Below the pieces are notes generated by a model. The model did no database searches and was not told the DNA's origin. It worked only from the letters and a program-made list of their open reading frames with translations. DNA of 64,000 nucleotides from Symbiodinium sp. CCMP2592 (taxonomy: Eukaryota > Sar > Dinophyceae > Suessiales > Symbiodiniaceae). The position numbers and the translations under genes were made by a program. Positions 28,501-52,960 of the stretch are shown piece by piece (within the stretch, counting starts at the first letter, position 1; each line of letters begins with the position of its first letter). Location: positions 1-64,000 of the forward strand of contig CAJNDT010003846.1 of assembly GCA_905221615.1 (NCBI GenBank), given 5' to 3'.

Positions 28501-31500
28501 GATGCCAAGGCCCAAACCAGCATCAACAGTTCCCACACCAGTGGCTGTGAGTGCCAGGGCCAACACCATCAGTATCAGTCGCCCCTTTCCAATAACAGTA
28601 GCCGCAAGCGCCATTGCCCAGAGAAACGAGTGCCACCGCACATCAGCTGCCCCCCTTCCAACACCGCTGGTTGCCAGGTGCCAAGTCCAAAAGATACCAT
28701 CATCAGCATCAGCCGTTCCGTTCCGAGACCAGTGGCTGCGAGTGCCAAGGCCCAGAACTAGCCTAACTAGCCAGCTTCATCAGCATCAGCCGAACCCTTT
28801 CCACACCAGTGGCTGTGAATGCCGATTCCCAAAGCCAGCATCATCCACATCGGCGTCCCACCGCCAAAGCCAGCATCAGCAGCCCACTGTCGGCCACACC
28901 GTTTCAACACCAGTGGCAGTCAGTGCTAAGGACAGCATCATCAGCATCGGTGGCTGACCGTGCTAAGGCCCAACCAAAGACAGCATCATCGGCATCAGCC
29001 GCCGCCTTCCAACACCGGTGGCTGCGAATGCCATTGCCCAAAGCCAGCCAACATCGTCATCAGCATCAGCCACATCAGTACAATACCAGTTTCTGCGACC
29101 AACATCATTAGTATCAGCCGCCCCCTGCCAACGTCAAAATGGCTGCGATTAACAAAACTCGAAACCAGCATCAGCAGCACCAGCCGCCCCTTCCAACACC
29201 AGTGGCCGCAAGTGCTATCGCCCAGAGCAAACCAGCATCATCCGCATCAGCCGCAACATTACAACACCAGTGTGGTTGCCAGTGCCAACACCCAATTTCA
29301 GAATCATCAGCATCAGCCGCCCTCTTCCAACACTAGTGTTTACTAAGTTTACTAGTGGCTTGGAATGCCAAGGCTCAGATCATCAGCCCCCTTCCAACAC
29401 CAGTTGCTGTGAATGCCAAGGCCCAAAACCAGCATCATCAGTATCAGCCGCGCTCTTCCAACACCAATAGCTCGAGCCAGCATTATCAGCATCAGCCGCC
29501 CCCTTCCAACACTAGTGGTTTTGAATGCTAAGGAGAGAGCCAGCATCATCAGCATCAGTAGCCGCTTTCTAACACCAGTGGCTTTGAATGCCACAGCCCA
29601 AAGCCAGCATCATGAGCATCAGCGCCTCCTTCCAACACCAGTGGCTTTCAATGCCAAGACCCGAGCCCAGCATCATCAGCATCAGCCGGACCCTTCCAAC
29701 ACCGGTGACTGTGAATGCCGAGGCCCAAAGCCAGCATCATCAGCATCAGCAACCCACTTCAAACACTAGAGGCTGTGAATGCCAAGGCCCGAAGCCAGCA
29801 TCATCAGCATCAGCCATCCTCTCCTAACACCAGTGACTGTGAATCCCAAAACCCGAGGCCAGCATCATCCTCAAACGCCAGAGGCTGTTGAATGCCAAGG
29901 CCCGAAGCCAGCATCATCAGAGTCAGCGGACCCCTGCCAACACTAATGGCTTTGAATGCCAAGCCCCAAAGCCAGCATCATCAGTGTCAGCCGCCCGCTT
30001 CCAACACCAGTGGCTGCGAATGGCACGGCCCACAGCCAGTACCATCAGCATGAGCCGCCTCCTTCAAACACTAGCTGTGCATGGCAAGGCCGGAAGCCAG
30101 CATCATCAGCATCAGCGCCATCAGCCGCACCCTTCCAACACCAGCGGCTGTGAATGCCAAGGCCCAAAGCCAGCATCATCAGTATGAGCCGCACGCTTCC
30201 AACACCAGTGGCTGCGAATGCCACGGCCGGAAGCAAGTGTCATGAGCATCAGGCCCAACTTTCCCACATAACTCCCGTGGCTGCGAACGCCAAGGCCCAA
30301 AACCAGCATCATCAGCATCAGCCGCCCCCCTCCAACACCAGTGGCTGTGAATGCTAAGGCCCGAAGCCAGCATCATTAGCGTCAGCCGCCCCCTTCAAAC
30401 ACCAGTGGTGCCTGCAGCCAGCATCATCAGCATCAGCCGCCACCAGTGGCTGTGAATGCCAAGGCCCACAGCCAGCATCATCAGCATCAGCCGCCCCGTT
30501 CCAAAGCCAGCATCATCAGCATCAGCCGCCCACTTCAAACACTAGAGGCTGTGAATGCCAAGGCCCGAAGCCCATCGTCACCATAAGCGGCCCCTGCCAA
30601 CACTAATGGCTTTGAATGCCAAGGCCCGAAGCCAGCATCGTCAGTATCAGCCGCCCGCTTCCAACACCAGTGGCTGCGAATGGCACGGCCCAAAGCCAGC
30701 ACCATCAGCATCAGCCGCACCCTTCCAACAACAGCGGCTCTGAATCTCAAGGCCCAAAGCCAGCATCATCAGTATGAGCCGCCCGCTTCCAACACCAGGG
30801 GCTGCGAATGCCACGGCCCGAAGCAAGTGTCATGAGCATCAGTCGCAACTTTCCCACATAACTTCTGTGGCTGCGAACGCCAAGGCCCAAAGCCAGCATC
30901 ATGAGCATCCGCCGCCCCCCTCCAACACCAGTCGCTGCGAATGCTAAGGCCCGAAGCCAGCATCATCAGCGTTAGCCGCCCGCGAATGCCAAGGCCCAAA
31001 GCCAGCATCATCAGCATCAGCAAACACTAGAGGCTGTGAATGCCGAGGCCCGAAGCCAGCATCATCAGCATCAGCGGCCTCCTTCAAACACTAGCTGTGC
31101 ATGCCAAGGGCGGAAGCCAGCATCATCAGCATCAGCGCCATCAGCCGCACCGTTCCAACACCAGTGGCTGTGAACCCCAGAACCCGAGGCCAGCATCATC
31201 AGCATCAGCCGCCACCTTCCAACAGCAGTGGCTGTGAATGCCAAAGCCCAAAGCCAGCATCATCAGCATCAGCCGCCCCCTTCCAACACCAGCGGCTGTG
31301 AATGCCAAGGCGCACAGCCAGCATCATCAGCATCAGCCGCCCCGTTCCAACAGAAGTGGCTGTGAATGTAAAGGCCCAAAGCCAGCATCATCAGCATCAG
31401 CCGCAGCCTTCCAACGCCACTGGCTGTGAATGCCACGGCCGGAAGCAAGTGTCATGAGCATCAAGCCCAACTTTCCCACATAACTCCCGTGGCTGCGAAT

Positions 31501-34480
31501 GCGAAGGCTCAAAACGAGCAGCATCAGCATCAGCCGCCCCCCTCAAACACCAGTGGCTGTGAATGCTAAGGCCCAAAGCCAGCATCATCAGCGTCAGCCG
31601 CCTCCTTCAATGTCAAACACCAGTGGCTGCGAATGCCAAGGCCTGAAACCAGCATCATCAGCATCAGCCGCCTCCTTCCAACACCAGTGGCTGTGCATAC
31701 CGAGGCCCAAAGCCAGCATCATCAGCAAACACTAGAGGCTGTGAATGCCAAGGCCCGAATCCAGCATCATCAGCATCAGCAGCCTCCTTCAAACACTAGC
31801 TGTGCATGCCAAGGCCGGAAGCCAGCATCATCAGCATCAGCGCCATCAGCCGCACCCTTCCAACACCAGCGGCTGTGAATGCCAAGGCCCAAAGCCAGCA
31901 TCATCAGTATAAGCCGCCCGCTTCCAACACCAGTGGCTGCGAATGCCACGGCCGGAAGCAAGTGTCATGAGCATCAGGCCCAACTTTCCCACATAACTCC
32001 CGTGGCTGCGAATGCGAAGGCCCAAAACGAGCAGCATCAGCATCAGCCGCCCCCCTCCAACACCGGTGGCTGTGAATGCTAAGGCCCAAAGCCAGCATCA
32101 TCAGCGTCAGCCGCCTCCTTCAATGTCAAACACCAGTGGTTGCGAATGCCAAGGCCTGAAACCAGCATCATCAGTATCAGCCGCCTCCTTCCAACACCAG
32201 TGGCTGTGAATGCCAAGGCCCAAAGCCAGCATCATCAGCATCAGCCGCCCCCTTCCAACACTAGAGTCTGTGCATGCCAAGGCCCACAGCCAGCATCATT
32301 AGCATGAGCCGCTCTGTTCCAACAGAAATGGTTGTGAATGCCGAGGCCGAAAGCCAGCATCATCAGCATCAGCCGCCCCCTTCCAAGACGAGAGACTGTG
32401 AATGCTAAGGCCCAAAGCCAGCATCATCAGCATCAGCCGCCACCTTCCAACAGCAGTGGCTGTGAATGGCAAAGCCCAAAGCCAGCATCATCAGCATCAG
32501 CCGCCCCCTCCAACTAATGCCAAGGCCCACAGCCAGCATCATCAGCATCAGCCGCCCCGTTCCAACAGAAGTGGCTAAAGGTCAAAAGCCGGCATCATCA
32601 GCATCAGCCGCCCCCTTCCAACACTAGAGGCTGTGCATGCCAAGGCCCACAGCCAGCATCATCAGCATCAGCCCCCCCGTTCCAACCGAAGTGGCTGTGA
32701 ATGCCGAGGCCAAAAGCTAGCATCATCAGCATCAGCCGCCTTCTTCCAACACTAGAGGCTGTGCATGCCAAGGCCCAAAGCCAGCATCGTCAGCATCAGC
32801 CGCCCCCTTCCAACACTAGTGGCTGCGAATGCCAAGGCCCAAAGCCAGCATAATCAGCATCAGCCGCCGCTTCCAACACCAGTGGCTGTGAAGGCGAAGG
32901 CCCACAGCCAGCATCATCAGCATCAGCCGCCCCGTTCCAACAGAAGGGGCTGTGAATGTAAAGGCCCAAAGCCAGCATCATCAGCATCAGCCGCCCCCTT
33001 CCAACACTAGAGTCTGTGCATGCCAAGGCCCACAGCCAGCATCATTAGCATGAGCCGCTCTGTTCCAACAGAAATGGTTGTGAATGCCGAGGCCGAAAGC
33101 CAGCATCATCAGCATCAGCCGCCCCCTTCCAAGACGAGAGACTGTGCATGCCAAGGCCCAAAGCCAGCATCATCAGCATCAGCCGCTTCCTTCCAACACT
33201 AGAGACTGTGCATGCCAAGGCCCAAAGCCAGCATCATCAGCATCAGCCGCCTCCTTCCAGCACTAGTGGCCGCGAATGCCAAGGCCCAAAGGCAGCATCA
33301 TCAGCATCAGCCGCCACTTCCAACACCAGTGGCTGTGAATGCCAAGGCCCACAGCCAGCATCATCAGCATCAGCCGCCCCGTTCCAACAGAAGTGGCTGT
33401 GAATGTAAAGGCCCAAAGACAGCATCATCAGCATCAGCCGCCCCCTTCCAACACTAGTGGCTGCGAATGCCAAGGCCCAAAGCCAGCATCATCAGCATCA
33501 GCCGCCACTTCCAACACAAGTGGCTGTGAATGCCAAGGCCTACAGCCAGCATCATCAGCATCAGCCGCTTCCAACAGAAGTGGCTGTGAATGTAAAAGCC
33601 CAAAGCCAGCATCATCAGCATCAGCCGCCCCCTTCCAACGCTAGTGGCTGCGAATGCCAAGGCCCAAAGCCAGCATCATCAGCATCAGCCGCCGCTTCCA
33701 ACACCAGTGGCTGCGAATGCACAGAAGTGGCTGTAAATGTACAGGCCAAAAGCCAGCATCATCAGCATCAGCCGCCCCCTTCCAACACTAGTGGCTGCGA
33801 ATGCCAAGGCCCAAAGCCAGCATCATCAGCATCAGCCGCCGCTTCCAACACCAGTGGCTGTGCATGCCAAGGCCCACAGCCAGCATCATCAGCATCAGCC
33901 GCCCCGTTCCAACAGAAGTGGCTGTAAATGTACAGGCCAAAAGCCAGCATCATCAGCATCAGCCGCCCCCTTCCAACACTAGTGGCTGCGAATGCCAAGG
34001 CCCAAAGCCAGCATCATCAGCATCAGCCGCCGCTTCCAACACCAGTGGCTGTGCATGCCAAGGCCCACAGCCAGCATCATCAGCATCAGCCGCCCCGTTC
34101 CAACAGAAGTGGCTGTGAATGTAAAGGCCCAAAGCCAGCATCATCAGCATCAGCCGTCCCCTTCCAACGCTAGTGGCTGCGAATGTCAAGGCCCAAAGCC
34201 AGCATCATCAGCATCAGCCGCCGCTTCCAACACAAGTGGCTGTGAATGCCAAGGCCCACAGCCAGCATCATCAGCATCAGCCGCCCCATTCCAACAGAAG
34301 TGGCTGTGAATGTAAAGGCCCAAAGCCAGCATCATCAGCATCAGCCGCCCCCTTCCAATACTAGTGGCTGCGAATGCCAAGGCCCAAAGCCAGCATCATC
34401 AGCATCAGCCGCCCCATTCCAACAGAAGTGGCTGTGAATGTAAAGGCCCAAAGCCAGCATCATCAGCATCAGCATCATCA
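28501..34480. repeat. 64-bp minisatellite array, about 90 units
   Basis: Tandem units of 64 bp containing CAGCATCATCAGCATCAGCC and a segment like TTCCAACACCAGTGGCTGTG. Because 64 is not a multiple of 3, each strand's open frames cycle through all three phases, and the array creates dozens of overlapping but meaningless ORFs. Units at 28.5-29.9 kb are divergent and interrupted; those after 32.7 kb are nearly identical. From about 33.7 kb three-unit blocks repeat every 191 bp. A variant with TTTCCCACATAACT recurs near 30.25, 30.85, 31.47 and 31.98 kb, which suggests larger duplications of 510-620 bp. Confidence 0.95.
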
Positions 34481-37861: not shown

Positions 37862-38986
37862 CTGCTGAAACCTGCAATGGTGCCATGCCAAGGAAACGGT
37901 CCTGGATCCCCTCCTGCTGAGATCTGCCGCAGCTGCATCGGTGGAAGATCGAGTCTGAGGCTGAACCTCGAAGAGTCCGCGAGGAAACTGTTGTGCGCAA
38001 AGCACTGCAGTGCCAACATGCTGGAGAAAATGTACCCAACAGTGGTATCCAGGTGCAGGCTCTTCTCACTCTGTCGGAGAAACGCATCGTTTTCCCAGGT
38101 TGGTGAACAGCACACATGTATGTTGTGGAAAACAAGCAGCATGCCTAACACGATTCCGAGGCCTGTGTAGCACAAACACATGCGATTCAATGCTCTTTGG
38201 ATTTGCGTATGCGGACGCGTACGCTGTGAAAGCTTTTGATTGCGCTTCGAGTGCCCGTTTCCCGTGGCACATTGGGAGGAAAACATTTTTGGAGACCTAC
38301 GCCCTCGACGAACTTCTTCAGAAGTAAGTTCTCCGGCACAACTTACTCCGGGATTCTTCCTAACGACACATCTGAACTTTTTACGAGTCTACTCAACTCC
38401 CCTGAAGTCGTACCGTCTGACTCACCAACTTTCTTCTTGCGTCGCGGGTACAATCAAAACAGAAAGGACAACGCCCACACCACAATCAGGCCAAGCTACA
38501 ATCAGCAGAAACTCAGTTTTCTGTACGGTGGATAGCTGCTCCCTAAGCCCTATAACACTCGTAGTAACATTCTAATACCCAGAACCCTGTAATATAGGGA
38601 CATACTATAATCATAAAGAGGAGACGATTGGTAATTTTTTGGGCCCCTCTAGTGACCTGACTTTTCTCCTTCCGAGAGACTTGGGGCTCCGCAGCGCCGG
38701 ATGGGCGGCGACTGGGACCTGGCGACACGAAGGTTTGCAGTGAAGTCCTAGGTGAACTCCTCATTCGAACCCATAAATCTTGGAATTCTGCACCCTCCAG
38801 TAAACATGCTACTTGTATACACCAAAACCCTGTACTATACTATTCTTACTATTCAAGGCTTTGCTGCTACTGTTACCTGCAAGCAAGCGGCTGTTGAAGG
38901 GACTCTGGCGTCGTGGGACGCTGCCAGCCTGTGGTGCTGCGGAATGCTGGCATAGGGTGTGCTCCAAGTAGAAGAGTCAAAAGCTT

Positions 38987-39101
38987 CCCAGAGACTCCAA
39001 TATCCCTTAATTAAGGAATATACCCTATTTCATATTAGGGATCCTACCATGATTCAAGGTATATTCCTTAATTACAAGTAAGGGATATGGGAGTCTCTGG
39101 G
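38987..39101. mobile_element. family D inverted-repeat element, intact
   Basis: 115 bp with ends CCCAGAGACTCCAATATCCC and GGGATATGGGAGTCTCTGGG as near-perfect inverted repeats; similarity extends inward through TTAAGGAATATACC. Confidence 0.82.
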
Positions 39102-41318: not shown

Positions 41319-41564
41319 ACAAATCAAAATGCACAACGGATATTGCACATTTTTCGGGCAGGAGTGCCAACAGGCCGGTGCAAGGCACATTTTCAGAGCT
41401 GGATGGCCGCACGGGCATTCTCGAATGCAGGCCACCAGGGAGCCCAGAATCCACCCATCGTGACCTCACGCCGCCCCTCCTTTTGGCCGTCGTCGTAATC
41501 GTAGTGTAGGAGGATCAGGAGGAGGAGGAGGATGAGTGAGAGTGGGAGTGGGATTGTTGCTAAA

Positions 41565-41760
41565 TGTGCATTCGCAAATGTTCATTGTTGGATCCGCAGG
41601 TTTCCAAATGTTCAGTGTTAGATCTGCATGTTACCGCATGTGCATTCGCAAATGTTGGCGAAATATGCATGGTTGCGACTACCGTACATGTTACGTGGAT
41701 GGTTGAACGGTACCATTGACTGGCTTTGCATTTCGCATCTGACATGTTCTGCTAACATTG
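41565..41760. repeat. TGCATTCGCAAATGTT repeat, left of copia
   Basis: Contains TGCATTCGCAAATGTT twice and TACATGTTACGTGGATGG. A related stretch lies on the far side of the copia element (50640-50845), with TACATGTTACTTGGATGG. Confidence 0.65.
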
Positions 41761-41769
41761 CAATCCTCG

Positions 41770-41774
41770 CGTGA
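41770..41774. repeat. target-site duplication, left copy
   Basis: CGTGA, repeated at 50620-50624 on the other side of the element. Confidence 0.85.
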
Positions 41775-42070
41775 CACAAGTGTGTTGGAAGCCTCACCGC
41801 TCGATCACAGCACAGATGCAAAAGCCGATGGCCCCGTAGGCCTGCAGAACGAGGTCACTGCTTTTCCGGTTGCGGCCGTCACGGTCGCTCTGTCGTCAGT
41901 CCACTGACCACGCACCGAGCCTATGGCTTCAAGCAAGCTTCCTTTAGAAGGACTATGTCGCGTAGCCTACAGATAAGCCAAAGGCGCGCCTGCGTGATAC
42001 AGCTGATTATGTGCTGAAAGTTGGATGCAGGCAAAGGTTACCTACAACTCAAGAGGCTGCCTCTCTGACA
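41775..42070 (-). repeat. copia 3' LTR
   Basis: Matches the 5' LTR at 295 of 296 positions. It starts 32 bp after the stop codon of the polyprotein. Confidence 0.93.
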
Positions 42071-42102: not shown

Positions 42103-45100
42103 TCAGCGTTCGGCCTCACGGGCAAAACAAGGGCCTAAGGCTTCAAGGGCACGCCGCTTCTTGGCGCTCATGATGGCTCCAGGATGGCGCAATCGCCAGC
42201 ACCCGGTGGTCAGGAAACGCTTGAGGGTGTCCTGCTTCTGCACCTTTGTGAGGCCGTCAGCAAGCTGGTGGTCGCTGTCCGTCCACTGAAGGTAGGTTCC
42301 CAAAGTGGTCATGCTCTGGGACAAGGCAAGAGTCTCCAGGGCCGAGAACTTATCCTTCATGTTGGAGATCGTCAGGTCACCCCGCTCCAAGGCATCATAT
42401 AAGGCACGAGCATCGATGACCATAGTGGCTGGGATGGAGCGGATCCAGGAATCCTTATCCTTGAGGTCGCCACGGCATCCGTTCATCTCTGACCAGGTGA
42501 GTCGTGCAAACATCATTTCGCCATCTAAGTCTGCCAAGGCCTGCGTCTCTGCTGAGAGGCTGCTCCGCGCAACTCGGTTGAGTCGACTGGACTTCCAGGT
42601 GATCGGGTTTATCTTCCCATAGCCGGCGCGAAACTCATCCGGGTTCATGAGGCCGAACAGGTGGCCACCGGTGGATTTGAGATCCGGTCTGTTGGCCACT
42701 GCGGCATCGCTCCACCCGACGAAGACCAGTCGAGAGGGGTCGCATCCGAGCTGCTGCACCTTCACCGACACATGGCGGGACGAATGAACCTCACGCACGA
42801 GCTTGTTGACCAGCTCCACTGCTTCGCCCTTCCGTGTCGCGAGAAGCGACAGAAGGTACGACACCTTGGCGCTGTGGTGTGGGCCACTCTGGGAAGCCCT
42901 CCACTGGATGGACCCCAAGATCGCGCGGGCTTGCGTGATCTCTGAACTTGACAGTTCGGACAAGTCCCCCTTCTCACGAGCTGGCATTTGCATGAGCTCG
43001 GAGCAGAACTCCGAATGGTCCAGTAAGATGCTGCCATCTGCAAATTGTTGGACCCGGATTCCGCAGTGATGGAAGCTGTCACTCTCCCACGGGCTCCAGG
43101 AGTACGCCTGATGGAGGTCGTGCAAGAAGTTGCAGTACTTGTCATTGCTTTCGTCCCCGCAAAACAGTATGTCGTCCACATACAGGCCCACAAGGCCAAT
43201 GACGGTCTTGTCATCATCAGCAAAGAGCCTCCAGATGCAAGGGTCTGAAAGACAAGGAACTGCATGGAGGCGTCGGAGGGTAGACGTCAAGTCTTGAAAC
43301 CACTCCCTCGGGGCTGAGGTTAGCCCGTAGGCAGAGCCTAGGAGTTCCACCATTTGTCTTTCCGACAGGTTCATGGCGGCCGCAAGTTCAGGTAGAGGCT
43401 GGGCGTGCAGAGGATGCTGACGGTCAGGAGCTCGAGCTTGAAGAAAGGCCGTCTTCACATCTCCTGCCAAAATTCTCCACTGTCTCGCCATGGCGTAGTT
43501 GAAGAAAAGCATCTTGCTCTGCCGACTCATTGCTGGAGACGATGTCTCTTGGTCCAGGAGCGAAGGATCGCTGTACCCCAAGATGACCATACGTGCTTTG
43601 GCTTTCACCTTCCCGGGCTCGGCTGCCTTGAAGGTGTAGATCCATCTCATCTTAAGGGCTTGCTCCTTCGTGATGTGGGGCAGAGCAGCTTTCACCACAC
43701 GATTGGTGAGCCATGAGTCCACTTCCGCGGCTTTGGCTTCAGACATGGCCGCTCGCTGCTTCTCATCCAAACGATTCCAGCTCACCTCCACTCCTTTTTG
43801 CACCGACTTGGCCATGAACTTCTTGGGATCCTTCAAGACCTTTCGCCACTCTTTGTCGTTGGCCGGCATGTCCAAGGTGATGGCATAGACGCCGTCTTGG
43901 GCTTCTTCCTCGGTGAAGAGAAGATCACCTTGTCGAACGTGCCATGGTCGATCATCCAGTTCATGCTGCCGTCGCTGTTCCTGAAAGGTTGAGGTGGAGG
44001 CAGAAGGCAGGTACCGGGGATCATTGAGGAGCCGGTCGATATCCAAGTCCATCTCAGAGGATGGCGGAGGTCGTGGTTCATGTAGTCGGGGCGCCTTTCG
44101 CATCGCTGAATCCGGCACCATTTCCTCATCAGACTCGAAAGGGGCAGTTGGAGGTGCTGCCGATGCTGAAGGTGGTTGTTCAGGAGGTAGCCGCGGGCGT
44201 CGAGGCACTCGTTCCGGACGTCGTTGAAGCCCTTTCTTCTTCTTTCCGATGAAGGATGATCGGGAAGCACGCTCTCGAGTCTCATCATCAAAGGACCCTT
44301 TGTCCAGGAGGCGAGTCAATGAGGTCATAGACCACGGCATGGTGATGTCGCGGAGGGCCTCGTGGGTGAGCTTCTCACTGGGCGACGCATGTCGAAGTTG
44401 AGAGGCATGAAATTTCTTGAGTCTTCCTCCACAGATCGCCCACACATATTGAGAGGCCTTCCGGTGGCGCTCCTCCACCTTGGTTTCACAACTTAGCACT
44501 CTCGCTGGCCCATACCATCGAGCTCCACGTAGGCGAGGTCGATCCACCCAGGAGTTCGCGGGAAGATCGGCTGGCGTTTTCATCCGCCGGAAGAACACCA
44601 TGTCTCCAGGATAGTAGTGGGCTTGAGACCTCACCTTAGCATTCTTAGCCCGGGAAAGCAGCTGTTCAGCACGATACTTCAGGAATCCCTGCTCGGCTTC
44701 CAGTCGGAGGCTCTGGCGTTGAGAGAAGGTAGTAGAGGTCGTTGCCGCCGAGATCTCATCCCCAGGAGCATCTTGAACTCGCCCACCAACTGACAGGTCT
44801 CGCCCCAAGGCCCATTGCATTGGCGAGAAGCCATGGACCCGCCCCAACGCATTGTGGGCGGTCACTGCCGCAATGGCAGCCTGGCCAGGGTGCTCAAAGG
44901 AGCCTCCCCTTAAGAAGCGTTCCAAATGCTGCTTGACAAACCCAATCTCACGCTCCACATCAGCAATCATCTCGTGGTATTCGGCGGGCGCCGGAACCAG
45001 ATCGATTCCCTTGTCCAAGCAGGCTTCACGTAGGACGGTACTCCTCAGAGCACCTTCCAAATCCAGCTTGAGGGTGTCGGGGTACCCAAAGTACTGGAAC

Positions 45101-48100
45101 CACGCTTCTTCCAAGGTATGTACCACTTCTTGGCCAGTCATGTTTCGGTGCTCCTCCTCGGGATGAGAGAACATCTCTCTCACCACCGCAAAGCCACTGG
45201 CTTCGTCCACCATCAACAGGTAGTGATAGACAGTTTCTCCGCAACGAAGATGAAAGCCATCAACCTGGAGACAGGACCATAGGCGCTCGCACTTGTCGAG
45301 GTTGACCGCGGGCGCAGGCATCTTGATCTGGGACTCCATGCACTCGTCGCACTCCAGTTGCGAGGCTGCCGCAATCACTTTCTCGTCGGCATTCCGGTGG
45401 ATCAGGTTCTTGATCAGTAGCCGGTTGGATGGATGCCCAAAGCGCCGATGCAGCTGCCTCACGTGTTGGTTGAGGCGTTCCAACTCGGTGGTAGTAAGGG
45501 TCTCCAGACACGAAACATCCACGGGATACACCGCAGAGGCTTCATCGTCCAGCAGCCAGGTGGTGGCTTGTTGAGTGACCGTAGTAAAGGTGGTCCAGAA
45601 GCGGTCCTCGGGCTGCCCAGGTGGAAGATCGCAGATTTCCAACACGTTGGAGTACACTTGCACTCCATCAACTGGAGAAGTCGCTGGGCCTTTTCCATAA
45701 CATCTCCAGAACCGTTGAAATTCCCGAAGTTGTCCCGCTTCGCTTTTGGAAGGCACCAGCCACAGTAGTTTGCCGCCGGTGAGGACGTGGTCCCGAGAGA
45801 GAAGTAGTAGATGTCGTAAGACCTTCAGGTAGCGCTTGATCCTGGTGGCGGCTTTCGGATCATTTCCACCACCGGCTTCATCAAATAGATGGGCTGGTCC
45901 TTGGGGTACATGACACCACAGCCACTCGGGTTTCAAGGTTGAAAGTTCACTTCGAGCCCGGTGGAAACCTCCATTGGTAGACAAATCGCATCCTTCTCCA
46001 AAAGAAAGCGTGTGGTACTTCCAGTCGAGTCCTTGTAGCGCCATTTCCATCGCCGCAGGGTCCAGCCACGGGTTGCAGAGGTTCACCACCTTGGCCGACT
46101 TCTCGTTGGGGTAGTGAACGAAGATCTCATTGAGCGCTTCCTCGTAGGCCACGTAGGAGCCCAAGATGGAGTTGCGATCCGCCTCAGTCAGGAGTTCCGC
46201 TTCGGGGCTTGCGGCTTCAATTTCTTCGACATCCTGGCCCTCATCCGAACCAAACAGAAGAGCCTCTCGTTCTCCAGACGACGTTCTCGTAGGCACACGA
46301 AGATTACGTAGGTCTCGATAGAGGTCCTCGTCACCACAAGCCTCACTCCAGCTCCGGGCGGTGTAGGCAACCACGGAGTAGCGATTGCCCGTCCAAGGCA
46401 AGGTTTTGTGGTATCGTTTTGGGCAAAACACAGTAGGGGTCCTCCACGTAGATAAAGTTTGGCCAGGAACCTTCTTGCCCCCCGGGACTTCCCGCCAGGA
46501 CACCGTAGAGCTCGGAACCGGAGGGTCTCCTTCTCGGTGCTCCACCCACAGTTCGCCTCCTTGGTAAGGACCCAATCCAAGTGCCAGGTTGTTGAAATCT
46601 GAGGCGTTGTGGGCGTCCACGTGCATATGGCCTTTCATATTCACCAGCACACTGAGAGAGGTCCAACGACAATCTTTGAAGGCGGGTAGGCGACGGAAGC
46701 ACTCATTAAAGAACCGACTGGTGGAAGGGTAGTGAAGAGAGTCTCGCGTCACCCCATAGTAGTTGCCGTGGGCGTACAGGCCAAACACCATGGCGAAGCC
46801 GTACTTCCGATCCCGTGTAGTGGCGGCTCTTCCCTCTTGAAACCTCCGGGGCTGCATCACCTCGATCAACTCTTCCATAGACTGGTAATCGAAGGACTCC
46901 AGATCCAGGAGGTACTCCGCAAAAGACTCTACCTCCAGGGAGTTCAACAGCTTGACAAAGTGGGCCTGGTCCTCGGTGTCATTGTTCAGGTCTCGCCCTC
47001 CAGCTGCTCGGGAATCGTGGAGCTTGGTCTCGAGGCCTTTCGACTGGGATGTGGTGGAAGCTCCTCGGGATCCACCACAATCGTTCCAGGGGAGAGTGGA
47101 CTTGAACCTTGTGACGGATGGCTCTTGCTCTCGTCCTGCACCTCGATGACCTTGGCCCCAATGGTCTTGGCGATCTGGTCCTGGTTCTTCAACTGGTCCC
47201 CGGTGGTCTCGGCGATCTGGTCCTGGTTCTTCAAGTGGTCCCCTGGTGGCATCTTGCGCGCTCCCTTGGTGTCCTCCGCGAGAGTGGAACGCCCTCCTCC
47301 CTTGCGAAGACGGCGTAGACTCTCCAGGCGGGCTAGCGCAGAGTTCTCGGCTGCCGTCAAGGAGATCTCCCGGTTCGACGGATAGGACTCGGTGTTGGGA
47401 GGAAGTTCTTGAAGAGCATCGGAGACATCCTTGGCCAGTGGGGCGCTCTTGCGGTGAATGCCATGGCAACCCATCCGAGGAGTGTACGTCAAGCGAAGTT
47501 TGCATACTTCGCATCCGGTCCAGCTCCCGTACTGGTTCGAGCCGGTCACACTTCCCTTGTAGCCCTTGGCCACTCGGTGGTTGCCGTGACATGGGGCCCC
47601 ACGGGTCCGTGGGTCCCGAGGGTCCGGGCCCTCTGATCTCTCCTCGTCCAAGGGATCGCTGACCTTCTTGGTCTTCGACTTTGAAGCTGCTGCCGCCTTG
47701 GCCATGAAGTGCTAAGAGGGAGGTAAGCACCGTCAGGGCCCTCATAGACCCTACTTCTTGAACTGCTGAAGGCTGCAACGAAGTCGAAGCCGTCAATACA
47801 TGCCCTGGGCTGGGTTCAGGTGGAGGTTCTGTCACTGGAGGATCATGCAGACAAATGCTTGCACTCAGATCGTCAACTGCATGAACTGACTGTGGAACCG
47901 CATCACACTCTTGATCATCCTGAACCATGAAACTGCTGGCGGGCCCTTCTTTTGAAAGACAAGGGAGAAGATCCGGCTGCCGGGTCAAGGAGTCTAATCG
48001 GTGGCCTTGTTGCAACCAATTGTCCTTCAGACTCACTAGAAGGTGACCCGACTTGCTGCGTCTCAGGGGAACAACCAGGCCTGCATCAACAGAGGCAAAC

Positions 48101-50181
48101 ACCGCACGACAATGGGCGAAATCCACCAAGGCATGCAGTCTCATCATGGTTTTGATGCCTATGAGTATGGGGACACCTACAACGTCCAGTGTAAAGATTC
48201 CCAGGTCCACTTGGTGATCCCCTATTTGTTGTGGAAGAAGAATAAACGAAGACGACACGGCGAATTCCCCATTCCCGAACTTGAACTTCTTGGGAGCCTG
48301 ATCAACCACCTGAAAAGGAGCTTGCGACGTGGATCTCTCCCGCACTCTCATAAGGGCCTCCAGCGCTGGAAGCGAAGCCACCGTCTCGGTAGCCCCAGAG
48401 TCCAGGACTGCATATCCAGAGAGGTCCTCCGAGGCGTCCTGGGAGTAGATCGCATCCCGGTTGGGGTCCTCCTCAATCGCATAGACGGAGGATGGCACGT
48501 ACTCAGGCTCCACGGAGTCGCCATAGAAGATGGTGGCCACCTCGGAGGCAAAATGGACGGCACCCTTGCCTCCCCCTTTCGACTGTCTCTTGGGGCAGTG
48601 GCGGAAGTCGTGGCTCTTGTTGCCACAGATGAAACAGCCGGTGTACGAAGGGTCGCCCACCGCGGCTCCAAGGAACCCACTCCCATCATCATCGCGCCCA
48701 GGTAGTCCAGAAGCCACAGAGGCCGCCAGGATGGGGTTAGAGGAAGCCGACGAGGAGGAAGGGAAACCAAAGCCTTTTCCCTTTGGCTTTCCTTTCCCCT
48801 TTCCTTTCTTTCCCTTGAAGGAGCCGCCCTTGATGGATGGCGTGAAGGGGTAGAATCCCCTTGAAAGGTTTCGAGCCTTCACCGCTTGCCGAGCTTCAAC
48901 GAAGTTCCGAGCCTTCTGGTCCACCGCTGCATAGGCCTCCTCCAGCTCTTTCTGCTGTTCCTGGGGAAGATCATCATACCACCAAGCGGCTGAAGGGTCC
49001 TCATAGCTCCACTCGTCCGGGTAGTAGTCCTCCCAGCCGCTTCCATAGTAGGTCCACTCATCAGAGTATTCCGGAGCAGGAGGAGAAACTGGATGGACTT
49101 GGGCAGGAAGCTGCTTCCCCACGTAGTGCACCTCGCCACCATCAAAGAGCTCGTCAAGGTCCATGCTGTCCCCAAGCCACATGGACCATTCTCCTTGTTC
49201 CTCCACCCAGTAGGTCCGGCCTCGTCCCTTTCCATGGTGACCCGGTCCTCCTCGCGGTCGAAGCTCTTGGGAGAGGATCTCGTCTTCCATGGCCCTCAAG
49301 CTCTTCTCGATATCATCAAGACGGAGGGAATTCCCTGCCGCCGACTGGACTGCCAGGCTGGCTTGGTGGGAGATTCCTGCTCGACGCAGCAGAAGCCATC
49401 CCAGCGCTTCACTCGGGAGCACATCCGGTAAGTGCTCGTCATAACGATCCCATAGGGCGAGATCCTCCAGAGCCAGGGCACTTTCATCAGAGTCGCTATC
49501 CCTTGCCTTCGGTGAGCGCTTGGCACGACGTCGCCACGACGGAGAAGATCTTCCAGGAACCTCGTCGTCCTCAAGGAGCTCCTCCCTGTCGTCCTCAGGA
49601 GGGCCCACGGTCTCCTCCCCATCACCAGCATCATCTTCGCCTTGAGGTTCTTCCTGGGTCTCTCGCGAGGCCCGACGTGGAGAGCTTGTTGAGGGAGGCG
49701 AAGATCGGGTTGGCCTCGAAGTAGAAGGCGACGAGGTCGAGGGGGCTGCCGCTGCAGCCGCTGGATCACCTTGGTCCTTTCGGACCCGTCCCAAAGCCAC
49801 CTGGAGCTGTCGGTAGTGATAGCGCAGTTGGCTTGACCAAGTTGACATGCTCTGGCCTGGTACACGGCGGATGCGCAAGATCAGGTTCTCGAGACGGGTG
49901 CCGATATCTGGCACCGGGGTGCGGCCTAACCGCTCGCGGAGGTACTCGAGCAAGTAGATGACGCCATTTCTCCGGACCAGCATCCGGTGATCCAAATCTT
50001 GAGTAATGACCCATGCCCGCTCGGTAAGCTGGGCCACCACCTCAGGACCAAGAAGGTGACGCTTCCTTCTGGGTGTCCGCTCAAAGGAGAGGCGGACTCG
50101 CCTCATGAAATCCGGATAGGTAGCCGGGTCGCCATTCCAAGCACATCGAATTCTGTTGTCGGGAGTCTCATGCGAAGCCAT
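42103..50181 (-). CDS. copia gag-pol polyprotein, 2,692 aa, single ORF
   Basis: Domains by approximate residue: gag-like region 1-500; CCHC zinc knuckle CFICGNKSHDFRHC at 516-529; aspartic protease DSGA at 594; a Pro/Ser-rich spacer; a dioxygenase-like segment with HVD at 1187-1189, His 1258 and Arg 1267; a second extra segment about 1360-1490; integrase HH-CC (RFGH, CDEC) then catalytic Asp 1641, Asp 1707 and Glu 1743 (the last two 35 residues apart); reverse transcriptase with DVKTAFL near 2241 and YVDD at 2334-2337; RNase H with SDA near 2480, SAETQAL near 2543 and DARALYDAL. It is much longer than usual copia polyproteins (around 1,300-1,500 aa), mostly because of residues about 620-1600. 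No frameshift or stop interrupts it. The start is the first ATG after the 5' LTR and primer site, 142 bp in. Confidence 0.95.
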   Translation of the reverse strand: MASHETPDNRIRCAWNGDPATYPDFMRRVRLSFERTPRRKRHLLGPEVVAQLTERAWVITQDLDHRMLVRRNGVIYLLEYLRERLGRTPVPDIGTRLENLILRIRRVPGQSMSTWSSQLRYHYRQLQVALGRVRKDQGDPAAAAAAPSTSSPSTSRPTRSSPPSTSSPRRASRETQEEPQGEDDAGDGEETVGPPEDDREELLEDDEVPGRSSPSWRRRAKRSPKARDSDSDESALALEDLALWDRYDEHLPDVLPSEALGWLLLRRAGISHQASLAVQSAAGNSLRLDDIEKSLRAMEDEILSQELRPRGGPGHHGKGRGRTYWVEEQGEWSMWLGDSMDLDELFDGGEVHYVGKQLPAQVHPVSPPAPEYSDEWTYYGSGWEDYYPDEWSYEDPSAAWWYDDLPQEQQKELEEAYAAVDQKARNFVEARQAVKARNLSRGFYPFTPSIKGGSFKGKKGKGKGKPKGKGFGFPSSSSASSNPILAASVASGLPGRDDDGSGFLGAAVGDPSYTGCFICGNKSHDFRHCPKRQSKGGGKGAVHFASEVATIFYGDSVEPEYVPSSVYAIEEDPNRDAIYSQDASEDLSGYAVLDSGATETVASLPALEALMRVRERSTSQAPFQVVDQAPKKFKFGNGEFAVSSSFILLPQQIGDHQVDLGIFTLDVVGVPILIGIKTMMRLHALVDFAHCRAVFASVDAGLVVPLRRSKSGHLLVSLKDNWLQQGHRLDSLTRQPDLLPCLSKEGPASSFMVQDDQECDAVPQSVHAVDDLSASICLHDPPVTEPPPEPSPGHVLTASTSLQPSAVQEVGSMRALTVLTSLLALHGQGGSSFKVEDQEGQRSLGRGEIRGPGPSGPTDPWGPMSRQPPSGQGLQGKCDRLEPVRELDRMRSMQTSLDVHSSDGLPWHSPQERPTGQGCLRCSSRTSSQHRVLSVEPGDLLDGSRELCASPPGESTPSSQGRRAFHSRGGHQGSAQDATRGPLEEPGPDRRDHRGPVEEPGPDRQDHWGQGHRGAGREQEPSVTRFKSTLPWNDCGGSRGASTTSQSKGLETKLHDSRAAGGRDLNNDTEDQAHFVKLLNSLEVESFAEYLLDLESFDYQSMEELIEVMQPRRFQEGRAATTRDRKYGFAMVFGLYAHGNYYGVTRDSLHYPSTSRFFNECFRRLPAFKDCRWTSLSVLVNMKGHMHVDAHNASDFNNLALGLGPYQGGELWVEHREGDPPVPSSTVSWREVPGGKKVPGQTLSTWRTPTVFCPKRYHKTLPWTGNRYSVVAYTARSWSEACGDEDLYRDLRNLRVPTRTSSGEREALLFGSDEGQDVEEIEAASPEAELLTEADRNSILGSYVAYEEALNEIFVHYPNEKSAKVVNLCNPWLDPAAMEMALQGLDWKYHTLSFGEGCDLSTNGGFHRARSELSTLKPEWLWCHVPQGPAHLFDEAGGGNDPKAATRIKRYLKVLRHLLLLSRDHVLTGGKLLWLVPSKSEAGQLREFQRFWRCYGKGPATSPVDGVQVYSNVLEICDLPPGQPEDRFWTTFTTVTQQATTWLLDDEASAVYPVDVSCLETLTTTELERLNQHVRQLHRRFGHPSNRLLIKNLIHRNADEKVIAAASQLECDECMESQIKMPAPAVNLDKCERLWSCLQVDGFHLRCGETVYHYLLMVDEASGFAVVREMFSHPEEEHRNMTGQEVVHTLEEAWFQYFGYPDTLKLDLEGALRSTVLREACLDKGIDLVPAPAEYHEMIADVEREIGFVKQHLERFLRGGSFEHPGQAAIAAVTAHNALGRVHGFSPMQWALGRDLSVGGRVQDAPGDEISAATTSTTFSQRQSLRLEAEQGFLKYRAEQLLSRAKNAKVRSQAHYYPGDMVFFRRMKTPADLPANSWVDRPRLRGARWYGPARVLSCETKVEERHRKASQYVWAICGGRLKKFHASQLRHASPSEKLTHEALRDITMPWSMTSLTRLLDKGSFDDETRERASRSSFIGKKKKGLQRRPERVPRRPRLPPEQPPSASAAPPTAPFESDEEMVPDSAMRKAPRLHEPRPPPSSEMDLDIDRLLNDPRYLPSASTSTFQEQRRQHELDDRPWHVRQGDLLFTEEEAQDGVYAITLDMPANDKEWRKVLKDPKKFMAKSVQKGVEVSWNRLDEKQRAAMSEAKAAEVDSWLTNRVVKAALPHITKEQALKMRWIYTFKAAEPGKVKAKARMVILGYSDPSLLDQETSSPAMSRQSKMLFFNYAMARQWRILAGDVKTAFLQARAPDRQHPLHAQPLPELAAAMNLSERQMVELLGSAYGLTSAPREWFQDLTSTLRRLHAVPCLSDPCIWRLFADDDKTVIGLVGLYVDDILFCGDESNDKYCNFLHDLHQAYSWSPWESDSFHHCGIRVQQFADGSILLDHSEFCSELMQMPAREKGDLSELSSSEITQARAILGSIQWRASQSGPHHSAKVSYLLSLLATRKGEAVELVNKLVREVHSSRHVSVKVQQLGCDPSRLVFVGWSDAAVANRPDLKSTGGHLFGLMNPDEFRAGYGKINPITWKSSRLNRVARSSLSAETQALADLDGEMMFARLTWSEMNGCRGDLKDKDSWIRSIPATMVIDARALYDALERGDLTISNMKDKFSALETLALSQSMTTLGTYLQWTDSDHQLADGLTKVQKQDTLKRFLTTGCWRLRHPGAIMSAKKRRALEALGPCFAREAER

Positions 50182-50310
50182 ACTGCAGGATCGTGTAAAA
50201 GGGCTCGTGCCTTCTCAATCTCCCTGCGGGATCAGGCCCCGGAACCAGGTACTGTATCACGTAGGCGAAGCTACCCAACACAGCCTTGAGCTCCCCAGCC
50301 GCTGGTACGA

Positions 50311-50322
50311 GCTCCGCTACCA
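50311..50322 (-). promoter_or_regulatory. copia primer-binding site
   Basis: One base after the 5' LTR the minus strand reads TGGTAGCGGAGC. TGG pairs with the CCA end of a tRNA. The stretch resembles the initiator-Met primer sites of other copia elements (TGGTA.C.GAG) with one change that would still allow a G-U pair with a metazoan-type initiator tRNA. Confidence 0.7.
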
Positions 50323-50323
50323 A

Positions 50324-50619
50324 CACAAGTGTGTTGGAAGCCTCACCGCTCGATCACAGCACAGATGCAAAAGCCGATGGCCCCGTAGGCCTGCAGAACG
50401 AGGTCACTGCTTTTCCGGTTGCGGCCGTCACGGTCGCTCTGTCGTCAGTCCACTGACCACGCACCGAGCCTATGGCTTCAAGCAAGCTTCCTTTAGAAGC
50501 ACTATGTCGCGTAGCCTACAGATAAGCCAAAGGCGCGCCTGCGTGATACAGCTGATTATGTGCTGAAAGTTGGATGCAGGCAAAGGTTACCTACAACTCA
50601 AGAGGCTGCCTCTCTGACA
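50324..50619 (-). repeat. copia 5' LTR
   Basis: Identical to 41775-42070 except for one base at 50500. It should contain the promoter and polyadenylation signals of the element; none is obvious by eye. Confidence 0.93.
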
Positions 50620-50624
50620 CGTGA
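50620..50624. repeat. target-site duplication, right copy
   Basis: CGTGA, matching 41770-41774. Confidence 0.85.
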
Positions 50625-50639
50625 ACCACGGAGGCAGCA

Positions 50640-50845
50640 TGCGCAGTCATAGCTGAATGTGCATTCGCAAACATGCATTCTCGGATCTGCAACCGGAGAA
50701 TATGCATTATTGGATTTGCAAGTTGCCACATATGCATTCGAAGATATGCATTCTTGCATTTACATGTTGCCGCATATGCATTCTCAAATGTTGGGAAAAT
50801 ATGCATTATCGCGATTTCCGTACATGTTACTTGGATGGCTGATCG
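50640..50845. repeat. TATGCAT-rich repeat, right of copia
   Basis: At least six ATATGCAT or CATGCAT motifs at 20-35-bp spacing, ending CGTACATGTTACTTGGATGG, homologous to 41620-41720. The copia element inserted between the two related stretches. Confidence 0.65.
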
Positions 50846-50868
50846 GCGGTCATAATTGTAGGGTGTAC

Positions 50869-52107: not shown

Positions 52108-52555
52108 CTTGGCAATATCGTTGAACCAGAACACTCGCTTGCAAATGCACAAACTGCAAAGTAGAGGGCAAACACCTCAACGAATGTAAAGACTTGCAAA
52201 CACCCCAGCAGCACCCGAGCTAGAGCCAGAGATTCCCAAAACGGACAACCGCGTACTTTACACGTTAAACGTACTGGTAACCAGAAGTTTATCTACACAA
52301 AGCCTCTACTCCCGGCATCCTACACTCCAACCTTTAGTAAGCTCCTTCACCCGAACCCTCAACCCTTAGACCCCTTCACTCAACCCCTCACACTCAAGCC
52401 AAAGCTTTCAAACCCATACTCTAAACCCTAAGCCCTTTTCCCTAAACTTCTCGCTAGACTCTTTGCGGCCGGAAGCGGCACGGTCACGCCGAGGCGGCGA
52501 AAGCCCCGCTGAATCTCCGAGGGATCCAGGGCCCCACTTCCGTCCTGCAATAATC

Positions 52556-52862
52556 CCAGAGACTCCCATATCCCTTAGTTACGGAACATACCTCAAATTA
52601 TAGTAGGATCCCAAGTATGATTTAAGGTATAGTTCCTTAATCAAAGGATCCCAAGTATGATTTAGGGTATAGTTCCTTAACCAAAGGATCCCAAGGATGA
52701 TTTAAGGTAGAGTTCCTTAATTAAAGGCCTACTTGTCGGGTATCCTGGGGAACTAGAGGTTAACATTTTTGGGTATATAGGGATTATATAGCGGCTATGC
52801 AACCCCAAAAAGGCTAAAGGTTACCTACTCGACTACTAGGAAGGATATTGGAGATTCTGAGG
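52556..52862. mobile_element. family D element with three internal 40-bp repeats
   Basis: Begins CCCAGAGACTCCCATATCCC and ends GGATATTGGAGATTCTGAGG. Inside, a 40-bp unit (GGATCCCAAG..ATGATTTA.GG and onward) is repeated at 52607-52646, 52647-52686 and 52687-52726 with few changes. The intact copy at 38987 has a single related segment. Confidence 0.72.
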
Positions 52863-52866
52863 TAAT

Positions 52867-52960
52867 CCCAGAGACTCCAATATCCCTTAGCTAAGGAACA
52901 TACCTTACCTTATAGTAGGATCCCTATAATATGATTTGAGGAGTTTGTGGGGTCTCTGCA
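52867..52960. mobile_element. family D element, decayed right end
   Basis: Starts CCCAGAGACTCCAATATCCC four bases after the previous family D copy ends. The right terminal repeat survives only as GGGGTCTCTGCA. Confidence 0.6.

Follow-up and report, generated by a model that had tools for sequence, protein, structure and literature searches.

A candidate TET/JBP-like dioxygenase domain inside the polyprotein of a copia-type retrotransposon of Symbiodinium sp. CCMP2592

Introduction

The contig CAJNDT010003846.1 of the dinoflagellate Symbiodinium sp. CCMP2592 (assembly GCA_905221615.1) was analyzed over positions 1 to 64,000; this whole stretch of 64,000 nucleotides is called the window below. 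On its minus strand, positions 42106-50214 form one stop-free frame of 2703 codons, which together with the flanking long terminal repeats (LTRs) is a complete copia-type element. A preliminary description of this locus, made from the letters of the sequence, had pointed to an HxD...H...R segment in the polyprotein and compared it with the Fe(II)/2-oxoglutarate (2OG) dioxygenases, the superfamily that includes the TET/JBP hydroxylases of thymine and 5-methylcytosine (5mC). The locus raises the question of what this segment is: an enzyme acting on DNA, an enzyme with another substrate, a fold that is no longer catalytic, or a coincidental arrangement of residues.

A conserved domain between the protease and the integrase

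The domain sits between the protease and the integrase of the uninterrupted copia polyprotein (Table 1). The positions given in the preliminary description (His 1187, Asp 1189, His 1258, Arg 1267) are exact if counting starts at the first Met, which is residue 12 of the frame; in the stop-to-stop numbering of the open reading frame (ORF), which is used here, they are H1198, D1200, H1269 and R1278. The spacing from the distal His to the Arg in the window is nine residues. The residues and their order agree with the 2OG signature that had been read from them; the motif by itself does not bear that reading. The pattern H.D.{45,100}H.{8,10}R was present in 1593 of 2000 shuffles of the ORF and a looser form in 1957 of 2000; with GG.[LT] added, the motif was found in 50 of the 2000 shuffled ORFs. 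The bare motif, being at chance level in shuffled ORFs, was rejected as evidence. Because it is so common by chance, the case must be carried by conservation, which does go beyond chance, and by the profile results.

Residues 1090-1320 were used as a query against proteins of polyprotein length, and ten of the 543 candidates matched at E 0.01 or better; five of these relatives are named Symbiodinium. All ten keep the HxD, GGELW, the distal His and the Arg, and all ten have the domain at the same place before the integrase. The distance from HxD to the HRRFGHPS motif is 389-393 residues in 11 of 11 polyproteins, the window included. The pre-integrase and integrase motifs are present in all ten relatives, the protease in seven and the reverse transcriptase (RT) in eight, while five contain both protease and RT. 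The conservation of the four residues among related elements, which had been named as a check on the idea, is therefore found both in these five and in the other, partial relatives. The view that the copia polyprotein contains an extra, non-standard domain is also borne out.

The ten relatives are 54-66% identical to the window in the 2OG-like domain, 48-62% in a second conserved domain described below, 75-85% in the integrase region (one of the ten aligns over 58% of that region) and 79-87% in the RT. The spacer upstream of the dioxygenase-like domain is alignable in five of the ten, with identities of 28-42%; these low values are partly caused by a +1 frame switch in the gene models.

Distant relatives and a stand-alone family

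A first profile search gave five short single-ORF matches among 2889 candidates (P0012 to P0016), and another gave nine among 7323 candidates (P0016 to P0024). P0016 to P0020 apparently represent a stand-alone version of the domain, with HVDAHN or HVDSHN, GGELW or a variant of it, and PHAVxxWxGER. Proteins of the stand-alone family are about 290-350 aa in length; two are from Symbiodinium sp. CCMP2592, and 42 sequences belong to each of the clusters P0016 and P0017. Comparison of the copia and stand-alone profiles with hhalign gave 98.9% over 203 columns, with the four residues in register; since P0016 was found via the copia profile, this result is consistent with the relationship and not independent of it. 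Relatives were found neither in viral contigs (profiles A1 and A7) nor in prokaryote contigs (A7), nor in phages (query P0016).

Conservation was counted in an 18-row alignment (A5), whose added relatives are 20-40% identical to the window. It omits P0009 and P0011 (near-duplicates of P0010 and P0008 in this domain), P0014 (distal part only) and P0022 to P0024 (broken or partial), and one of its members, P0015, stops short of the distal His. The Asp is kept in 18 of 18 rows, the first His in 16 of 18, the distal His in 15 of 17 and the Arg in 17 of 17. All four residues are within the 29 best-conserved of 220 columns, with a chance probability of about 2.5e-4 if the columns are assumed to be independent. 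The same column test on a 12-row alignment (A6, which omits P0004, P0006, P0007, P0009, P0011, P0012, P0014 and P0020 to P0024) gave 1.1e-3; the ligand-lacking P0012 and P0021 are counted in A5 and not in A6. The Asn of HxDxxN, three residues after the Asp (N1203), is invariant in A5; we take this Asn to be a feature of TET2, and it is absent from the fungal TET protein CcTet.

Similarity to TET/JBP proteins

Among Pfam families, Tet_JBP (PF12851) alone is matched by two or more relatives. In whole proteins, its E values were 1.7e-4 for P0013 and 0.0068 for P0016 (four proteins scanned), 0.084 for P0018 and 0.11 for P0020, and the start positions place the His of HxD near position 90 of the Tet_JBP model in all four. 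P0016, P0018 and P0020, with their weak matches, are three of the five stand-alone family members. Of 12 trimmed rows, five matched the family (the best, at E 8.7e-5, still under the curated cut-off), and of the six members of A1, one did (E 0.16). In the Protein Data Bank, at E <10, the profiles A5, A6 and A8 each match only CcTet (8jkk, 7vpn), with insignificant E values of 1.2 and 1.4 for A5, 0.27 and 0.29 for A6, and 0.72 and 0.76 for A8. The alignment with CcTet is ungapped across its HRD motif. These three profiles have rows in common and are therefore not independent of each other.

The Pfam domain scans reached E 10, with the HMMER filters removing most matches above 0.1 (one scan of the relatives reached E 1), and within these limits no AlkB or 2OG-FeII_Oxy_2 profile was matched. 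Scattered matches of single members (TEX13, four PHROGs and four NCBIfam models; best E 0.019) were taken as chance.

The proposed link to the TET/JBP enzymes thus stands in part: the best sequence links lead there and to no other 2OG family, and all of them are weak and sub-threshold. Since the scores are below the curated thresholds, the domain is called TET/JBP-like and is not filed as a member of the family. Like TET/JBP proteins, of which CcTet is the nearest solved one, it has the HxD, the distal His and the Arg in the same order; unlike them, it is located inside a retrotransposon polyprotein and falls below all curated cut-offs. The domain is shorter than TET2.

Weighing the possible explanations

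The best explanation would be a divergent TET/JBP-like Fe(II)/2OG dioxygenase acting on DNA, which was captured by a copia lineage of Symbiodinium-like dinoflagellates and kept between protease and integrase as a fixed domain of Pol. We give this reading a probability of roughly 0.55.

Several observations weigh against it. The highest whole-protein Tet_JBP score, 21.3 bits, falls short of the Pfam cut-off of 34.9, which is a detection threshold and not a biological feature. The Tet_JBP matches of P0016, P0018 and P0020 span just 34-44 residues, P0013 with its longer match has no distal His, and P0017, P0019 and P0021 have no Tet_JBP match in Pfam at E up to 1. The alignment with CcTet covers 41-42 profile positions in the HxD half, with the distal His outside. 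Searched with the window's own domain, Pfam, PHROGs, NCBIfam and the Protein Data Bank gave no match; three consensus sequences likewise had none in Pfam. The A1 profile, built from six close copia domains, matched nothing in the Protein Data Bank; P0013, P0016 and the stand-alone profile found no TET there, and the matches that they did give are unrelated and were taken as chance. The first His is replaced by Arg in P0012 and P0021, and the distal His by Gln in P0013 and by Leu in P0021. The domain also evolves faster than the integrase and the RT (about 55-65% versus 75-87% identity). Finally, an AlphaFold model based on six close sequences has a predicted local distance difference test score (pLDDT) of 42.9 and a predicted template modeling score of 0.46. 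In this low-confidence model, strands lie before HxD, at HxD, at GELWVE, at the distal His and after the Arg, with pLDDT <50 for almost all of the residues in them. The strand order of the double-stranded beta-helix is consistent with this order, which comes from an unreliable model.

The most serious competitor, although in our estimate an unlikely one, is a 2OG dioxygenase with another substrate, either an RNA demethylase comparable to the AlkB domain of orchid Ty3 elements or a hydroxylase of proteins such as Gag or integrase. GGELW resembles a motif of other 2OG enzymes, and retroelement RNA is available throughout the cycle. There is also a precedent, the 2OG domain of an orchid Ty3 element with N6-methyladenosine (m6A) demethylase activity in vitro (PMC9289625). 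However, no AlkB, prolyl-hydroxylase or other 2OG family of Pfam was found within the domain or in its stand-alone relatives in the filtered scans described above, at E up to 10 or, in one of them, up to 1; the lone, weak match to the FTO C-terminal family (0.11), at 2108-2174 of P0005, falls outside the domain. The searches of the Protein Data Bank with A5, A6 and A8 likewise brought up no protein of the AlkB or prolyl-hydroxylase type.

It is improbable that this conserved domain lies outside the 2OG dioxygenases, with HxD...H...R a coincidence in some other fold such as a zinc- or nuclease-like module. Such a coincidence is easily obtained with the bare motif in an ORF of this length, as the shuffles indicate; no library match is significant, and the AlphaFold model is not usable. 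On the other hand, the four positions are among the best-conserved columns down to about 20% identity, and Pfam and the Protein Data Bank indicate the same family, albeit with overlapping queries.

We consider it similarly improbable that the fold has been retained without catalysis, serving, for example, the integrase complex as a binding or scaffold component. The loss of ligands in some related single ORFs (P0012, P0013 and P0021) would fit this, and the second domain, which from its motifs has no catalytic Cys, would mean that non-catalytic enzyme relics may be tolerated here. The ligands are, nevertheless, intact in 11 of 11 polyproteins despite the domain identity of only 54-66% to the window. 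The members that have lost a ligand are single ORFs outside visible polyproteins and may be decayed copies.

An accident, whether a host gene fragment in one copy or an open-frame artefact, is practically negligible: it is already refuted by the position conserved in 10 of 10 relatives, and the identical LTRs around this copy and the long open frame also contradict it.

Architecture and age of the element

The features of the element are given in Table 1. It has two LTRs, a primer site, a zinc knuckle, a protease, an integrase before RVT_2, and an RNase H, as in Ty1/copia elements. RVT_2 is the only significant library match in the polyprotein, and the remaining parts were assigned from motifs and conservation. 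A weak gag_pre-integrs match was found in the relatives P0008 and P0011, and the integrase proper begins, judging from its motifs, at about residue 1649. The identity of the LTRs indicates that the insertion was recent, given the mode of replication of LTR elements. The target-site duplication of copia elements is usually 5 bp long, whereas here a 4-bp CGTG repeat is observed. The putative primer binding site presumably resembles the initiator-tRNA-Met primer site of plant copia elements.

Table 1. Features of the copia-type element in the window, with residues in stop-to-stop numbering.
Feature	Positions	Strand	Remarks
5' LTR (element sense)	50323-50619	-	297 bp, TGTCAG...TTGTGT; all 297 bp identical to the other LTR
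3' LTR (element sense)	41774-42070	-	297 bp; 100% identical to the 5' LTR
Putative target-site duplication CGTG	41770-41773 and 50620-50623		4 bp; flanks both LTRs
Putative primer binding site TGGTAGCGGAGCTCG	50308-50322	-	Directly 3' of the 5' LTR
Gag-Pol reading frame	42106-50214	-	2703 aa; stop codon 42103-42105; first Met = residue 12
Gag zinc knuckle CFICGNKSHDFRHC	48595-48636	-	Residues 527-540; motif reading
Aspartic protease motif VLDSGATE	48385-48408	-	Residues 603-610; motif reading
+1-frame ORF beginning HFMAKAAAASKSKTKK	46986-47711	-	241 aa, Cys/His-rich; overlaps the main frame just upstream of the dioxygenase-like domain
TET/JBP-like 2OG-Fe(II) dioxygenase domain (candidate)	46285-46905	-	Residues 1104-1310; core 1140-1292 = 46797-46339
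HVD motif, predicted Fe(II) ligands	46615-46623	-	H1198 46623-46621, His in 16/18 rows; D1200 46617-46615, Asp in 18/18 rows
H1269, predicted third Fe(II) ligand	46408-46410	-	15/17 rows reaching the position
R1278, predicted 2OG-binding Arg	46381-46383	-	17/17 rows reaching the position
Second conserved domain	45520-46092	-	Residues ~1375-1565; 48-62% identical in 10/10 relatives; no credible library match
Pre-integrase and integrase region	44515-45492	-	Residues 1575-1900; motifs and 75-85% identity in 10 relatives (one aligns over 58% of the region)
HRRFGHPS, start of the pre-integrase zinc module	45427-45450	-	From residue 1589; motif
Copia reverse transcriptase RVT_2	42988-43668	-	Residues 2183-2409; Pfam E 4.3e-19
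RNase H motif SAETQAL	42535-42555	-	Residues 2554-2560; motif reading

No second copy of the element was found within the window by tblastn. Just outside the LTRs, at 41559-41710 and 50652-50846, both flanks hold similar short repeats (63-83% over 40 nt, 80% over 103 nt); the site of insertion may therefore have been a local array of repeats. Elsewhere in the window, positions 29165-34473 are occupied by a tandem array of more than 5 kb with a unit of about 64 bp and higher-order periods of 128 and 191 bp. A dispersed family of 93-nt repeats beginning TCCCAGAGACTCC is represented at 38986-39078, 52554-52646 and 52866-52958, with 62-74% identity to the reference copy. Scans of the window with Rfam (gathering scores) and for tRNA genes gave nothing.

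The second conserved domain

The second domain is located between the dioxygenase-like domain and the pre-integrase module. The motifs KVVNLC.PW, GCDLST, PEWLWCHVPxGP and GGKLxW can be read in it, and from these it may be a degenerate class-I methyltransferase-like fold without the catalytic Cys. Its identity as a DNA methyltransferase has no library support. Matches to TAL effectors were rejected as chance, the best E of 5.6e-5 being a sum over many repeats of which no single stretch passes.

An overlapping ORF upstream of the domain

The +1 ORF is 57-66% identical to stretches of P0003, P0006, P0007, P0010 and P0011, where the gene models switch frame; in the main frame, the same bases are 34-41% identical in P0004, P0005, P0008 and P0009. 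Codon use favors the +1 frame in all of the ten 40-codon windows examined, whose starts range from residue 840 to 1020, with small margins in some. When the +1 protein was fixed, 13.1 stops were expected in the main frame and none is observed, and none of 20000 simulated sequences was stop-free; synonymous codons were drawn from the rest of the frame, which assumes that codon choice is the same here as elsewhere in it. The reverse test is weak: when the main protein was held constant, 5.5% of simulations left the +1 frame free of stops, and other parts of the frame contain +1 runs as long as 195 codons. The region 46986-47711 therefore appears to be dual-coding, with selection apparently keeping the main frame open. 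Unless a frameshift or splice intervenes, the dioxygenase-like domain can be reached only through the main frame, and the fact that this frame is open beneath a conserved overlapping ORF suggests that read-through into the domain matters. A 42-bp tandem duplication (88% alike) is present at 47151-47234, inside the +1 ORF, and some relatives carry other short repeats near the same place.

Comparison with known elements

Mobile elements with their own base-modifying enzyme, presented as a new idea in the preliminary description, are already known (PMC12730594, PMC5890265, PMC12344493, PMC9289625). Fungal transposons contain a TET/JBP-type gene, which has been proposed to aid escape from methylation-based silencing; these carriers are DNA transposons, whereas the element described here is an LTR retrotransposon (PMC12730594). 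The orchid Ty3/Gypsy elements also have a 2OG dioxygenase domain in an LTR retrotransposon, but that domain is of the AlkB family, is encoded by an additional ORF in a Gypsy-type element, and is an RNA m6A demethylase (PMC9289625). In the screen of 121 angiosperm genomes reported in the same work, all 15 unusual domains were in Gypsy-type elements and none in Copia. Among dinoflagellate retrotransposons, SymbioLINE-Dnmt and SymbioDIRS-Dnmt3 encode a DNA-modifying enzyme (PMC5890265), and DNMT3 has been described in Copia and DIRS elements, the Copia ones in streptophytes (PMC12344493). The enzymes of these DNMT elements are cytosine methyltransferases and not dioxygenases (PMC5890265, PMC12344493); the words TET, dioxygenase and JBP are absent from the main text of PMC5890265.

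We found no report of a 2OG or TET/JBP-type domain in a copia element or any retrotransposon among the open-licence papers searched. TET/JBP-encoding DNA transposons of fungi were reportedly the subject of earlier work by Iyer and colleagues. The fungal study explicitly states that no TET/JBP retrotransposon was found (PMC12730594).

Possible role and significance

If the domain is a TET/JBP-like dioxygenase, it would be made as part of Gag-Pol and released by the protease, either alone or still joined to the second domain and the integrase. It could then enter the nucleus with the complex of complementary DNA (cDNA) and integrase and oxidize the methyl group of a base, 5mC or thymine, in the new copy of the element or in the DNA near the insertion site. 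As a result, the copy would escape the host's heavily modified chromatin or come to resemble it.

Both thymine and 5mC are plausible substrates. Fresh cDNA contains thymine but no 5mC; it could therefore be a substrate for a thymine hydroxylase, while an enzyme oxidizing 5mC would depend on DNA that is already methylated, either at the target or in a resident copy. Most of the Symbiodinium genome is CG-methylated (PMC5890265). In Breviolum minutum, certain repeats show enrichment of 5-hydroxymethyluracil (5hmU), and this base correlates with lower accessibility (PMC11071213). The tie between the domain and 5hmU is circumstantial. That the copia lineage hydroxylates thymines of its own cDNA to 5hmU before or during integration, as camouflage or as a targeting mark, seems to us rather unlikely; if this were true, the retrotransposon-encoded TET/JBP enzyme would be a second source of dinoflagellate 5hmU.

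The conserved domain suggests that an enzyme for placing chemical marks on DNA, or for removing them, is carried by the element itself. If the domain does oxidize DNA bases, these would apparently be the first retrotransposons with a TET/JBP-type enzyme, as far as the literature search shows. A base-modifying enzyme would then be placed next to the integrase, in organisms whose genomes have unusually high levels of 5hmU and CG methylation, and it could be tested directly whether such marks are written or erased by transposons. The four-residue signature offers a handle for counting such elements across dinoflagellate genomes.

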